Of a stretch of DNA of 45,213 nt, positions 19,621 to 26,975 are shown one piece after another. Origin of the DNA: an uncultured Erysipelotrichaceae bacterium (lineage in GTDB: Bacteria; Bacillota_I; Bacilli_A; RF39; UBA660); NCBI GenBank assembly GCA_902767245.1, contig CACXGO010000029.1:95598-140810 (forward strand). Reading direction: 5' to 3'. The position numbers were made by a program, and so were the translations under genes. Each line of letters starts with the position of its first letter. Position 1 is the first letter of the stretch. Below the pieces are notes generated by a model that made no database searches, was not told the origin of the DNA, and saw nothing but the letters and a program-made list of their open reading frames with translations.

Positions 19621-19640
19621 AGATAAGCTTTTGCTTATCT
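19621..19640 (-). terminator. Terminator of the CotD-like gene
   Basis: 8-bp stem AGATAAGC/GCTTATCT, loop of four, followed by seven T. Confidence 0.8.
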
Positions 19641-19874
19641 AAAATTACAGCAAGATCCTGGATCTTGATTACATATAATATTTTCTTCTGAGCAAGAATA
19701 TTCTGGTCTATAAGTATGTCTATAAATATGTTTATTTATTATATGCGTATGAATTGGGCATACATGTGGTACCTCATAAAAAAATTCTCTTTCAACACAC
19801 TTATTAATTGCAGGTTCAATTACTTCTTGCATTCTGCATTCAGGTTCACGATTACAACATTGATTGTTAAACAT
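19635..19874 (-). CDS. CotD-like spore coat protein
   Basis: 79 residues, rich in Cys (9) and His (5). The core FYEVPHVCPIHTHIINKHIYRHTY follows the CotD pattern (VPHxHPxHTxxVNHxxxxHxHYxPHT) of inner spore coat proteins. It is flanked by Cys pairs at both ends (QCCNREPEC, SCCNF). ATG at 19874 has a perfect AGGAGG. Own terminator. A CATAAAATA at 19896-19904 resembles the -10 of mother-cell sigma factors (CATAnnnTA), but no matching -35 was found. If the call is right, the organism or its ancestor makes endospores. The alternative is a metal-binding small protein of unknown role. Confidence 0.65.
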   Translation of the reverse strand: MFNNQCCNREPECRMQEVIEPAINKCVEREFFYEVPHVCPIHTHIINKHIYRHTYRPEYSCSEENIICNQDPGSCCNFR

Positions 19875-22560: not shown

Positions 22561-22839
22561 TTACAATTTTTCTTTATTTACAATGTGATTAGCAATGTAT
22601 TTTTCAAGTTCAACTTTTTTTTCACCTTTTAAGGGTCGACATTTTAAATATTCATTAAAATCTTTTTTTATTGCCAATGCCATTCCCTCACATGAACCAT
22701 GACCACAGCCTCCACAGTTATATCCTGGTAATCTTTTCTTTAGTTCCTCTATTTGTTTATCTTTAAGCATATTATTTGCAAAAGATAAAATAAGTCCAAG
22801 TATTAAAGCTGTTAATGTTAAAATTATAATCCCTTGCAT
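22561..22839 (-). CDS. rnfB: Short RnfB: membrane anchor plus one Fe-S motif
   Basis: RnfB normally takes electrons from ferredoxin through an N-terminal helix, a CxxCxxxxC domain and two or more ferredoxin-type 4Fe-4S modules. This 92-residue copy has the helix (residues 3-20) and the motif LPGYNCGGCGHGSC with C42, C45 and C50 plus C67, and ends there. The ferredoxin modules are absent, with no continuation in any frame before frr. The start at 22839 is chosen because AAAGGA lies 8 bases ahead; an ATG at 22848 has no spacing. It overlaps the 34-residue peptide gene. It may rely on a partner ferredoxin protein encoded elsewhere. Confidence 0.85.
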   Translation of the reverse strand: MQGIIILTLTALILGLILSFANNMLKDKQIEELKKRLPGYNCGGCGHGSCEGMALAIKKDFNEYLKCRPLKGEKKVELEKYIANHIVNKEKL

Positions 22840-22928
22840 TTTCCACATCCTTTACAATTATGACTTTTTACTTTACAAGATAAAAACAAATATAAAATTA
22901 TTAGAATAAATAAAACTATAAACGGCAT
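22824..22928 (-). CDS. 34-residue Cys-rich membrane peptide in the rnf operon
   Basis: A short gene starting two bases after the rnfA stop: ATG at 22928, with CGAGG about 10 bases ahead inside rnfA. It ends in TAA within rnfB (16-base overlap). The product has one hydrophobic helix (MPFIVLFILIILYLFLSC, residues 1-18) and a basic tail with HNCKGCGKCKG, four Cys in all (C18, C25, C28, C31). The layout is like FeoB-associated Cys-rich membrane proteins and like NqrM, which supplies iron for the intramembrane cluster of Na+-NQR. A role in maturing the RnfA/RnfE cluster is inference. Confidence 0.7.
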   Translation of the reverse strand: MPFIVLFILIILYLFLSCKVKSHNCKGCGKCKGL

Positions 22929-22929
22929 T

Positions 22930-23493
22930 TTAACCAAACCTCGAAAACAATATCGCCATAATTGTAGCAACAATTAAAGCAATTGGATAGTCCTTAAATG
23001 ATTTAGGAATAGCGCCATTATCTAAACGCTCTCTTATTGTTGAGAGTGTATATATTACCACTAAATAACCAAGTGAACTTGCAAAGGAATAAACAAGTAT
23101 TTCTATAAGATTATAGTTACTATTAATACCTACTAAAACGGTTCCTAAAACGGCACAATTAGTTGTTATTAGCGGTAAATATATACCTAAATTTTCATAT
23201 AAAGTACTATTGACCTTTTTTATAAATAATTCAACCAATTTAACTAAACAAGCAATAATCAAGATAAACATTAAAGTTCTTAAATATGTAGCATCAAATG
23301 GTACTAAAATATATTTATATATCAAATATGAAAATATGCTAGAAATAACAGTTACAAAGACAACTGAAGTCCCCATAAAAAACGAATTTTTACGCTTATT
23401 TGATGTTCCTAAAAATGAACAAAGACCTAAAAATTTTGTTAAAACAATGTTTTCTGTTAAAAATCCAACTATAAAAATATTAATTAGAGACAT
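22930..23493 (-). CDS. rnfA: Rnf electron transport complex subunit RnfA
   Basis: Membrane subunit with about six helices, homologous to RnfE and to NqrE. It carries the half-sites for the intramembrane 2Fe-2S cluster: C25 in ENIVLTKFLGLCSFLG and C113 in LPLITTNCAVLG. 187 residues, close to the usual 190. ATG at 23493 with GGAGG, overlapping the end of rnfE by 14 bases. Confidence 0.95.
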   Translation of the reverse strand: MSLINIFIVGFLTENIVLTKFLGLCSFLGTSNKRKNSFFMGTSVVFVTVISSIFSYLIYKYILVPFDATYLRTLMFILIIACLVKLVELFIKKVNSTLYENLGIYLPLITTNCAVLGTVLVGINSNYNLIEILVYSFASSLGYLVVIYTLSTIRERLDNGAIPKSFKDYPIALIVATIMAILFSRFG

Positions 23494-24124
23494 TTTTCTT
23501 CCTCCTTGATTTCATGAAATTAATAAAGGCAAGCAATAAGGCCAAAGCTAAAAATGCCCCTGCTGGTTTAACCATAATATTTATTGGTGTAAATGCTGGA
23601 AGTACATTTTCAATAACTAAATTTTGACCAAAGATTTTAGCTAAACCATCATTACTCAAAATTGTAATTGAATTATTCCCAAATAACTCACGAACTAAAC
23701 CAATAATCATAAGTGCCATTGTAAAACCAAGTCCCGTTCCAATTGCATCTAGAATACTATTTTTGACTGATTCTTTAGAAGCAACTTCTAGTGCTCTACC
23801 AAAAATAATACAATTAACAGTTATCAAAGGTAAATAAATACTTAAAACATCATAAAGTCCTGGAAGCTCATTTTTTAAAACTATTTCTATTGCAGTTACA
23901 AATGTTCCAATTATTAAAATAAATACTGGTATTTTTACTAAATCAGGTACTATTTTTTTTATTAAAGAAATTATAAAATTTGAACCAAGTAAAACAACTA
24001 AAACACAAAGTCCCATCACATAAGATTTTTCAAATGTCGTTGTAACAGCTAAAGCAGGACAAAGTCCCAATAACAAAACAAATATTGCGTTTTCTTTAGT
24101 TATTCCATTCCATATTTTTTTCAT
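23480..24124 (-). CDS. rnfE: Rnf electron transport complex subunit RnfE
   Basis: Membrane subunit paired with RnfA. Motifs: GITKENAIFVLLLGLCPALAV (C22) and LPLITVNCIIFGRAL (C105) for the shared intramembrane cluster. About six helices and a basic C-terminus (KSRRKKN). 214 residues. ATG at 24124 follows GGAGG located inside the preceding small gene, with which it overlaps as ATGA. Confidence 0.95.
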   Translation of the reverse strand: MKKIWNGITKENAIFVLLLGLCPALAVTTTFEKSYVMGLCVLVVLLGSNFIISLIKKIVPDLVKIPVFILIIGTFVTAIEIVLKNELPGLYDVLSIYLPLITVNCIIFGRALEVASKESVKNSILDAIGTGLGFTMALMIIGLVRELFGNNSITILSNDGLAKIFGQNLVIENVLPAFTPINIMVKPAGAFLALALLLAFINFMKSRRKKNVSN

Positions 24125-24222
24125 ATATTTCCTCCATAAAAATTATATAAAAGATACATTATAATTGCGCAAACTAAAGTTATTAAAACTAATACTAAAA
24201 TCGCTTTAAAATCATTTTTCAT
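24121..24222 (-). CDS. 33-residue membrane peptide between rnfDG and rnfE
   Basis: ATG at 24222, three bases after the rnfD-rnfG stop, with GGGG ahead, and TGA overlapping the rnfE start by 4 bases. The product has the form MKNDFK, one helix (AILVLVLITLVCAIIMYLLY) and NFYGGNI. It resembles the N-terminal anchor helix of RnfG and sits exactly where rnfG is found in the common CDGEAB order. However, the fused RnfG domain already has its own helix. It could be a small subunit of the complex or a leftover of a duplicated rnfG start. Confidence 0.6.
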   Translation of the reverse strand: MKNDFKAILVLVLITLVCAIIMYLLYNFYGGNI

Positions 24223-24225
24223 AAA

Positions 24226-25647
24226 CTACCCCATATAATCATTTAAAACATTTCTTGCAAGTTTTTTAATTGCCGTTGAAGTAATAGTTGCTCCGCTTAC
24301 AGTATCTATATCTTCAACTTCACTTTTGTTTTTAAATTTATCAACATAATTGCTTTCTTCAACTTTTGAATAGAAACTATCATTTTGTTCTAAAATATTG
24401 ATTTTTTCAATTTTTGAATCTTTTATAATTACTTCTGCTTTAATCAAACTTGAATAACCTTTCTCAGTAACAATATAGGTTGTTGCATCATTTTTGGTTT
24501 CCTTAGAAATTATATTAAAGTTTGGATCAACATTAACTTTATTCTCTTTAGTTTCAGCAATATAAAGTGAAAGTCCTAAAATAAGCATTATTTGAACAAG
24601 AACTAGAATTGCAATTTTTTTATAACCAAATCTTGCATATGCACCTAATCGATCAATCATAATAACAAACATATTCATAATTAAAATGCTTGTTAAAACC
24701 CCTTCTGGAGCATTTGTCAAATATCTAAATACAACTGTTAAAATTCCAAGAAAAATTCCATATATTACTTGAGCAATTGGTGTTGTTGGGCTTGTAACTG
24801 GATCTGTTGCCATAAAAATAGCTCCAAAGAAAAGTCCCCCACTTAATATTTGAAATGTTGGGTACCATAGAGTTGCATCATTTAAACTACCAATAATATA
24901 AGTCATTACAAATACTGTTCCAATATATGTAATTGGAATACGCCATTTTATTGCTTTTTTATAAACTAAATATAAAAATCCAAGGATGCACAAAAAGGCA
25001 CTAGTTTCTCCTAATGCTCCAGGAATTGATCCAAAAAAGAAATTCCAAAGAGTCCCATATGGCTTTACTAAAGCATCATATGTTCCAATTGTTTCAATAG
25101 TTGCATAATTACTTAATGGTGTAGATTTTGAAATAGCATCAACTTCATAACTATTTAAATATCCACCATTATTTGTAATAGTTACAGCAAAAATGGTAAT
25201 TATAAATAGTCTTCCAATTAAAGCCGGATTAAAAATATTATATCCAAGTCCTCCAAATACAATTTTACCAATTAATGATGATATTAAAGCACCTACTATA
25301 AGTATCCAAATTGGAGTATTAATTGGAAGAATTAAAGCTAAAAATAAACCTGGAAAAATACTATATTTTGTTTTTAAATGATAACCAATATTTTTGGGTT
25401 CCTTTTTAATTAAAATTCCATATAAATATTCTGTAAAAAAAGTAACAAAAACTGATACAAATATCATTATAAGTGGTAATAACATTTGATAAATTGTTGA
25501 TTTTCCATTAATATATGGAACTATTCCATTCTTATAAAAAGAATAAAGTATTATTGGAATAAGAGCTATTAAAAGATTATTCATAATATTGTTTGTTTTA
25601 TTTTCTGTTTTTAAAAACGGACCTTCTTTAATATGAATTTCTTTCAT
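24226..25647 (-). CDS. Fused RnfD-RnfG subunit
   Basis: 473 residues joining two Rnf subunits. Residues 1-335 are RnfD/NqrB-like, with about ten helices, the flavin-attachment segment DAISKSTPL (T176), GYNIFNPALIGR and FGAIFMATDPVTSPTTP. A helix at 343-363 (KIAILVLVQIMLILGLSLYI) and an extracytoplasmic FMN-binding domain follow (about 390-470), ending in DTVSGATITSTA with the flavinylation Thr T454. This domain is the RnfG part, shorter than usual. Both covalent FMN sites (family knowledge; attachment by ApbE, not in window) are thus in one chain. ATG at 25647 shares a base with the rnfC stop and has GGAAGTGA ahead. Confidence 0.9.
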   Translation of the reverse strand: MKEIHIKEGPFLKTENKTNNIMNNLLIALIPIILYSFYKNGIVPYINGKSTIYQMLLPLIMIFVSVFVTFFTEYLYGILIKKEPKNIGYHLKTKYSIFPGLFLALILPINTPIWILIVGALISSLIGKIVFGGLGYNIFNPALIGRLFIITIFAVTITNNGGYLNSYEVDAISKSTPLSNYATIETIGTYDALVKPYGTLWNFFFGSIPGALGETSAFLCILGFLYLVYKKAIKWRIPITYIGTVFVMTYIIGSLNDATLWYPTFQILSGGLFFGAIFMATDPVTSPTTPIAQVIYGIFLGILTVVFRYLTNAPEGVLTSILIMNMFVIMIDRLGAYARFGYKKIAILVLVQIMLILGLSLYIAETKENKVNVDPNFNIISKETKNDATTYIVTEKGYSSLIKAEVIIKDSKIEKINILEQNDSFYSKVEESNYVDKFKNKSEVEDIDTVSGATITSTAIKKLARNVLNDYMG

Positions 25648-26915
25648 TATCTCACTTCCTTTATTTTTTCTTTAGCTAATTTTACACATTCTCTTATATT
25701 TAAACGTGATGGACATATATATGAACATGAACCACATTCAATGCATTTATCAGTATTTAATTTTTTTAGCGTTTCAATATTATTTAAATTATCTTTAATT
25801 ATAACCGGTGAAAGCTTAGCAGGACAGACTTGAACACATTTACCACATCTAATACATGGAAGTGCTAATTCATTAACAGGACTCTTAATTACTAGTACAC
25901 AATTTAAATTTGGAGTAATTATTAAATCATCACTTGGTAATGATGTTCCCATCATAGGTCCCCCAGCAATAAAAGTTATATCTTTGGCTCTTTTATAACC
26001 TTCAATTGATTCAATTATTTCTTTTACTGGTGTTCCAACCTTAACAACAATATTTTGTGGTGCTTTAAGCATTTCACCAGCAAATGTCACAGTCCTTTCA
26101 GTTAATGCCCGATTATATTTTAATGCGCTATAAATGGCATAAATAGTAGAAATATTATTAATTACAACACCAAGTTCAATTGGCAAGCGATCATAGTCTT
26201 CTTTAATAATTTTTTTAACAAGCATACGCTCCCATCCCATTGGATACATATCATCAACCAAAAATAGTTTTACTCTTAAATATGTACCAATGTGATTATT
26301 AAATGCATTTATTAGTTCAGAATTGTTTTTCTTTACTGCAATATAGCATTCTTCTATTTCATTAATTGTTAATATGGCATCAATTGCTTCTAATATTTCC
26401 TCTGTAAAATTAAGACCTAATATTTGATCTGCTGTAATATATGGCTCACATTCAACGGCATTAACTATTAAAGTGTTAATTTTTCTTTTTGTATCATATT
26501 TTGCATATGTTGGAAATCCAGCTCCACCCATACCAATAATTCCTTTTTCTTTAATGATTTCAAGAAACTCTTTTTTAGAAAAATCAGTTATTTTTTTACT
26601 TTTTTTAACATTTAATTCAGAATCTTTAAAATCATTTTCAATTTTAACACATTTTACTTTTTCACCATTATAACAAATATGTTCTTCAAAACCGACAACT
26701 ATACCTGAAACACTTGAAAGAATAGGAATTTTAAATGTTCCCTTTCTTCTTCCAACAATACTTCCTTTATTTACATAGTCACCTTTTTGAACTAAAACTG
26801 TTATATTAGTATCGCCAGCATTAATTAACGGTATATAAACATAATTTGGACGCATATATTTTGCTAATGAATGCTCTAATGTTTTTTTCTTGTATTTTGG
26901 TAAATGTAAAGCCAT
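25647..26915 (-). CDS. rnfC: Rnf electron transport complex subunit RnfC
   Basis: Peripheral NADH/FMN-binding subunit of Rnf. Features: a barrel-sandwich start (INAGDTNITVLVQKGDYVNKGSIVG), the NADH/FMN site segments KGIIGMGGAGFPTYAK and NAVECEPYITAD, and two 4Fe-4S motifs, CIRCGKCVQVCP and CIECGSCSYICP, near the C-terminus. 422 residues, within family range. The start at 26915 is chosen for GGAG 10 bases ahead; an ATG at 26930 lacks a site. First gene of the rnfC-DG-33aa-E-A-34aa-B(-frr) operon. Confidence 0.95.
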   Translation of the reverse strand: MALHLPKYKKKTLEHSLAKYMRPNYVYIPLINAGDTNITVLVQKGDYVNKGSIVGRRKGTFKIPILSSVSGIVVGFEEHICYNGEKVKCVKIENDFKDSELNVKKSKKITDFSKKEFLEIIKEKGIIGMGGAGFPTYAKYDTKRKINTLIVNAVECEPYITADQILGLNFTEEILEAIDAILTINEIEECYIAVKKNNSELINAFNNHIGTYLRVKLFLVDDMYPMGWERMLVKKIIKEDYDRLPIELGVVINNISTIYAIYSALKYNRALTERTVTFAGEMLKAPQNIVVKVGTPVKEIIESIEGYKRAKDITFIAGGPMMGTSLPSDDLIITPNLNCVLVIKSPVNELALPCIRCGKCVQVCPAKLSPVIIKDNLNNIETLKKLNTDKCIECGSCSYICPSRLNIRECVKLAKEKIKEVR

Positions 26916-26975
26916 TAAGACCAACTCCATTCTAATATAGATTATACATTGTTTTAAAAATTTTTTAAAGCCTAA

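Follow-up and report, generated by a model that had tools for sequence, protein, structure and literature searches.

According to the available part of a review (PMC12174285), which is also the source of the NqrM details used below, NqrM seems to be needed for insertion of the 2Fe-2S cluster into NQR. In that part, NqrM is named for NQR only, no assembly factor is named for Rnf, and the making of the intramembrane 2Fe-2S cluster of Rnf is left unexplained. The ferredoxin domain of RnfB is described there with two to seven clusters, and the Rnf structures described have a long RnfB. The literature we found, with most subscription papers outside its coverage, contains no mention of a short RnfB or of a Cys peptide accompanying Rnf.

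The rnf operon of the window (the whole 45,213-nucleotide stretch analysed here) encodes both. Its genes all lie on the minus strand, in the order rnfC, rnfD-RnfG FMN fusion, 33-aa ORF, rnfE, rnfA, peptide and short rnfB, with the following features:

25647..26930, minus strand: rnfC, 427 aa, TIGR01945 above cut-off
24226..25647, minus strand: rnfD with the RnfG FMN-binding domain fused at its C-terminus (PF03116 and PF04205)
24121..24222, minus strand: second micro-ORF, 33 aa, one helix, at the rnfG place and conserved in the window's family
23480..24124, minus strand: rnfE, 214 aa, both cluster Cys motifs present
22930..23493, minus strand: rnfA, 187 aa, both cluster Cys present (C25, C113)
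22939..22942, minus strand: GAGG, Shine-Dalgarno-like, for the peptide, within the 3' end of rnfA (sequence read directly)
22824..22928, minus strand: peptide gene, 34 aa, supported by its ORF, same-place conservation, pN/pS and three invariant Cys in alignment A5
22848..22853, minus strand: AAAGGA, Shine-Dalgarno-like, for rnfB, within the peptide coding sequence (sequence read directly)
22561..22839, minus strand: rnfB, short form, 92 aa, an N-terminal helix and one 4Fe-4S domain (PF04060), without the ferredoxin domain

RnfA and RnfE of the window retain their Cys motifs for binding of the intramembrane 2Fe-2S cluster. The peptide encoded between rnfA and rnfB (MPFIVLFILIILYLFLSCKVKSHNCKGCGKCKGL; 34 codons, ORF 22928-22824 on the minus strand) consists, as read directly, of one hydrophobic helix at about residues 2-17, a basic stretch and a tail with four Cys (C18, C25, C28 and C31) arranged as C18...C25-x2-C28-x2-C31. 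By the positive-inside rule, this tail would lie on the cytoplasmic side. The peptide ATG follows the rnfA stop after one base, and the 3' end of the gene overlaps rnfB, which starts at 22839, by 16 nt. The GAGG motif is 10 nt upstream of the peptide gene, and relatives show a similar AGG or GGAGG. Moreover, the AAAGGA motif of rnfB overlaps the Lys-Gly codons of the peptide, with a comparable arrangement in relatives. The two overlapping genes probably have translation signals in common.

RnfG is split in the window's family: its FMN-binding domain is joined to the C-terminus of RnfD, and a one-helix ORF is left at the rnfG place. This ORF is conserved, with 29-36 aa in the family and a consensus of approximately K..ILxLTLTALICSxLLYLV, and the 33-aa micro-ORF at 24121-24222 probably encodes the N-terminal helix of RnfG as a separate peptide. 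The fusion is of mechanistic interest, since the RnfG FMN domain is believed to swing between RnfA/E and RnfD. Elsewhere in the window (19635-19874, minus strand), a 79-aa ORF rich in Cys and His resembles a spore-coat-type protein.

RnfA searches covered first 60 relatives and then 386 family genomes, and the DNA downstream of rnfA was inspected. One contig among the 56 family genomes with rnfA ends inside the gap, leaving 55 readable operons. A short ORF of about 30-44 codons, encoding a single hydrophobic stretch and a Cys tail, is found at the same place in 52 of them, the exceptions being G140, G144 and G153. The sister genome G001, whose RnfA is 84% identical, carries the ORF at the same place, and the comparison with the window gives pS 0.64 and pN 0.24. 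Pooled over 17 close pairs, some of which have a member in common, the proportions of changed synonymous and nonsynonymous sites are pS 0.44 and pN 0.18 as uncorrected counts (pN/pS 0.41). Because of this same-place conservation and the excess of pS over pN, the peptide ORF is a protein-coding gene under purifying selection, with conservation far beyond chance. Three Cys are invariant in the family alignment A5 (23 sequences), and Cys are still conserved in operons whose RnfA is about 50% identical. The tail spacing is C-x2-C-x(2-5)-C, varying from x2 to x5, and the tail often has further Cys or His. The sequence-only reading had proposed a real gene below the usual gene-calling length, for which one-helix Cys ORFs in the rnfA-rnfB gaps of relatives and a synonymous-site bias would speak; such ORFs, with frame and Cys conserved, and such a bias were found. 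Its four-Cys motif survives as the three invariant Cys, while the fourth Cys is not conserved.

A gene of this kind might also encode no functional protein, the ORF being held open by the need for the rnfB ribosome-binding site and by overlap with its neighbors. The Cys-tail codons do double as the Shine-Dalgarno-like site of rnfB in the window's family. However, the pN/pS ratio and the persistence of the Cys at such RnfA divergence argue against this explanation, and it is contradicted by homologues of 55-95 aa encoded at a distance from rnf; we consider it highly improbable.

The peptide resembles NqrM (PF04400, DUF539), the Na+-NQR maturation factor, in being small, with one helix, a basic exit and a Cys-rich tail containing a C-x(1-2)-C pair, and in the location of its gene, next to an operon for a redox pump; the two pumps are homologous and have intramembrane 2Fe-2S sites of one kind. 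The single N-terminal helix with a Cys tail, predicted to be cytoplasmic, was read directly from the sequences. In contrast, the peptide is shorter, lacks the GSCGG motif, has a first Cys that is not conserved, and is encoded beside rnf, unlike NqrM beside nqr. PF04400 matched neither the window peptide nor members of A1 and A4. None of the 60 relatives gave a match, versus 22 of 150 Pseudomonadota, whose matches indicate that the model works. Nothing was found in Bacilli or in mostly Bacteroidota genomes, a result that alone proves little, since control genomes were silent too. NqrM was not found in the searched Bacilli even with NQR present; NQR operons of Bacilli were seen at L158, L160 and L231-L239, and no nqrM (PF04400) was detected in G056 and G058, which hold L158 and L160.

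NqrM proteins were gathered through PF04400 in Pseudomonadota (alignment A3) and compared with the peptide by hhalign. G-S-C-G and a C-x-C/C-x2-C pair are invariant in A3, whereas GSCGG and four conserved Cys are absent from A4 and A5, which have three invariant Cys. The default run gave an E value of 6e-5 and a probability of 65%, which looked suggestive; however, when the columns behind the helix were shuffled, 28 of 100 such controls reached its score of 24.1. NqrM homology was rejected on this control. Because shuffled tails can score as high, the similarity is one of helix hydrophobicity and a general Cys-tail look. The earlier suggestion of an NqrM counterpart for Rnf thus keeps the one-helix-plus-Cys build and the dedication to Rnf described below, but not membership of the NqrM family.

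In other Bacilli, the corresponding site encodes a longer form of 52-82 aa, in which N-K-K-T-P-x-P is followed, often after E-G-C, by C-x2-C-x4-C. Its alignment, A4, has one invariant Pro and three invariant Cys and matches A5 with an hhalign probability of 92%, and the positions agree too. The A4 profile (peptide threshold E 1e-6) and RnfA were both run on 395 class Bacilli genomes; many genomes in the set are incomplete MAGs. Outside the window's family, whose short peptide forms escape the A4 profile, 207 genomes had an RnfA-like protein (a count that takes in NqrE) and 178 had the peptide; both were present in 176, the peptide only in 2 and the RnfA-like protein only in 31. The Fisher p value stays under 1e-40 for every plausible count of family members in the set, although the genomes are not independent and the figure says only that the link is strong. 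The two peptide-only genomes, without an RnfA match, are 85-86% complete.

The 31 genomes with an RnfA-like protein only are varied. By reading, eight are NQR-only and six have a long RnfB with a ferredoxin domain (G619, G663, G715, G751, G838 and G843). Four more are presumed NQR-only, from the genus of one of the eight, and one is presumed to have a long RnfB, being congeneric with four of the six. G873 has a broken rnfA. Below the threshold, G630, G801 and G758 carry a divergent linked peptide, and G608, G704 and G798 give a weak unlinked match. The other five are G583, G745, G769, G781 and G847, four of which are at most 84% complete.

Furthermore, 50 genomes were searched whole: 44 non-Bacilli with Rnf or NQR, five of Erysipelotrichales type, and that of L034. 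None of the 44 gave a convincing peptide, the one match at E 3.5e-4 containing an in-frame stop. All five Erysipelotrichales-type genomes were positive, and L034, which has a short RnfB and no linked copy, has an unlinked one. The peptide therefore occurs with Rnf and, apart from the two genomes above, not without it. Collectively, conservation, position and co-occurrence show the gene to encode a small membrane protein dedicated to the Rnf of class Bacilli. The co-occurrence is partly one ancestral state retained in the lineage; its weight lies in repeated joint losses of Rnf and peptide and in two rnf replacements. The 44 non-Bacilli genomes and the NQR-only Bacilli also indicate that an RnfA/RnfE-type 2Fe-2S site has no general need of the peptide. 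The idea of a general factor for such sites is weakened accordingly, as neither clostridial Rnf nor the NQR of Bacilli with NQR only is accompanied by the peptide.

No Pfam or NCBIfam model scored above cut-off for the window peptide, and no convincing family emerged for its relatives. The FeoB-associated Cys-rich membrane protein (PF12669) has a similar build of one helix and a Cys tail in Bacillota. A small metal protein of this type might have been recruited beside rnf for metal supply or redox sensing, with an indirect tie to Rnf, and weak PF12669 matches from 8 of 20 A1 members (best E 3.6e-5) point that way. However, the peptides of G011 and G045 (21.0 and 16.6 bits) do not reach the cut-off of 27 bits, PF12669 proteins above the cut-off lie elsewhere in the genomes and do not follow Rnf, and the co-occurrence of the peptide with Rnf is nearly perfect. 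No peptide gene was found beside feoB: linked copies lie between rnfA and rnfB, and the unlinked copies read have other neighbors. Membership of this family was rejected, since the peptide scores below cut-off and follows Rnf rather than feoB, and we regard a recruited protein of this type as unlikely. Among other candidates, the LITAF-like zinc ribbon (PF10601) weakly matches the helix-Cys part of the window peptide (20.1 bits versus a cut-off of 23.8), but only over a 27-residue part of the 70-position domain. RnfB, encoded by the neighboring gene, also has one helix followed by Cys; the peptide as a split-off part of RnfB was rejected, because the adjacent RnfB has a helix and a cluster motif of its own. 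A search of solved structures with A4 found no relative (best E 0.12).

The length of the RnfB encoded after rnfA is bimodal, at about 85-131 aa in the Bacilli type and 223-338 aa in the rest. The short form, with one helix, one 4Fe-4S domain and no ferredoxin domain, is found in the window and in most rnf loci of Bacilli. Among the operons read, a true rnfA-adjacent peptide occurs only with short RnfB, and 73 short forms with the peptide were counted by script. The single row of a long RnfB with a peptide (L110) was an out-of-frame artefact, and the RnfB of spirochaetal L039 is long on inspection. The peptide was absent from the six inspected Bacilli with a long clostridial-type RnfB and from the eight inspected NQR-only Bacilli. 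In the RnfA tree, made by a quick method and with modest support in places, rows with short RnfB cluster separately, and Bacilli with long RnfB are placed among clostridial sequences. The latter form two groups (L210, L211, L214, L215, L212 and L229) with clostridial-type RnfB and without the peptide, and their rnf is probably a replacement by horizontal transfer. The peptide thus tracks Rnf with short RnfB, and this pairing is the strongest correlate found. As a separate observation, a NuoE-like and a NuoG/HydA-like gene lie ahead of the rnf operon at L159 (G047), which suggests a different electron-input module.

Strict pairing with short RnfB suits a subunit and an assembly factor equally well. 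As a micro-subunit of Bacilli-type Rnf, the peptide would stay in the mature complex beside short RnfB and stabilize or complete the module for electron input, which in other Rnf complexes is the RnfB ferredoxin domain; its Cys tail might carry a metal site. The two length classes of RnfB, the lack of the peptide in both long-RnfB groups of Bacilli with clostridial-like RnfA, and the gene overlap with probably common translation signals are consistent with such a role. In contrast, 34-80 residues are too few to replace a two-cluster ferredoxin domain, the Cys spacing is variable with only three Cys invariant, and the available part of the review (PMC12174285) mentions no such subunit for the Rnf structures, which have long RnfB. 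A micro-subunit is possible rather than probable, and nearly as likely as an assembly factor because the pairing with short RnfB is so strong.

Gene location and copy number also speak against a fixed subunit. In clades f3, f5, f16 and f22, the operons read have rnfB directly after rnfA, and the peptide gene lies elsewhere, still only with Rnf; equating the lack of a linked copy with absence of the protein was wrong, since copies exist elsewhere in the genome. By names assigned by eye, the gene adjoins dCMP deaminase in f3, f5 and f16 and lies between uracil-DNA-glycosylase-like and phosphoglucomutase-like genes in f22; Asp-tRNA synthetase, copper ATPase and rhomboid genes were also read beside unlinked copies. 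The first two contexts are conserved (L204 and L207-L209; L196, L197, L199, L205 and L206). The deaminase was dropped as a functional clue: in G054, a single stretch contains rnf, peptide, rnfB and dCMP deaminase, the last just downstream of the linked operon, so the adjacency of deaminase and peptide gene is probably left over from an ancestral gene order. Moreover, copy number is out of step with the number of rnf operons, with one peptide copy for two operons in G038 and two copies for one RnfA match in G588. Collectively, unlinked location and copy numbers argue, though not decisively, for action in trans.

The peptide probably helps to build or operate Rnf with short RnfB in one way or the other. 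As the most likely reading, we give about even chances to the peptide being an Rnf-dedicated assembly or iron/Fe-S factor that would act in trans, with predicted transient metal binding. This assembly-factor reading draws on the build, the trans location, the variable Cys spacing and the NqrM precedent. The helix would anchor the peptide in the membrane, and the tail, with its three invariant Cys and often more Cys or His, would briefly bind iron or an Fe-S precursor. The recipient of the iron or Fe-S would be either the 2Fe-2S site that RnfA/RnfE hold within the membrane or the one 4Fe-4S domain of short RnfB. Such action in trans would parallel that proposed for NqrM with NQR and does not imply common ancestry. 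Transient metal binding fits better than a fixed electron-transfer cluster, because the Cys spacing varies and the fourth Cys is not conserved.

The gene is probably missed by genome annotation, since no Pfam or NCBIfam model exceeds its cut-off and most copies in the window's family have fewer than 45 codons. As nearly all Bacilli with Rnf have it, organisms of Erysipelotrichales type among them, the peptide is a testable candidate for an assembly factor. Its presence also distinguishes a form of Rnf in which the ferredoxin domain of RnfB is missing, which raises the question of the electron donor. More doubtfully, class Bacilli may have a distinct, undescribed type of Rnf, in which RnfB has lost the ferredoxin domain and the peptide, bearing a metal or Fe-S site, is indispensable to the electron-input module. 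If so, electrons would enter the Rnf of Bacilli in a way unlike that in the Rnf complexes studied so far.
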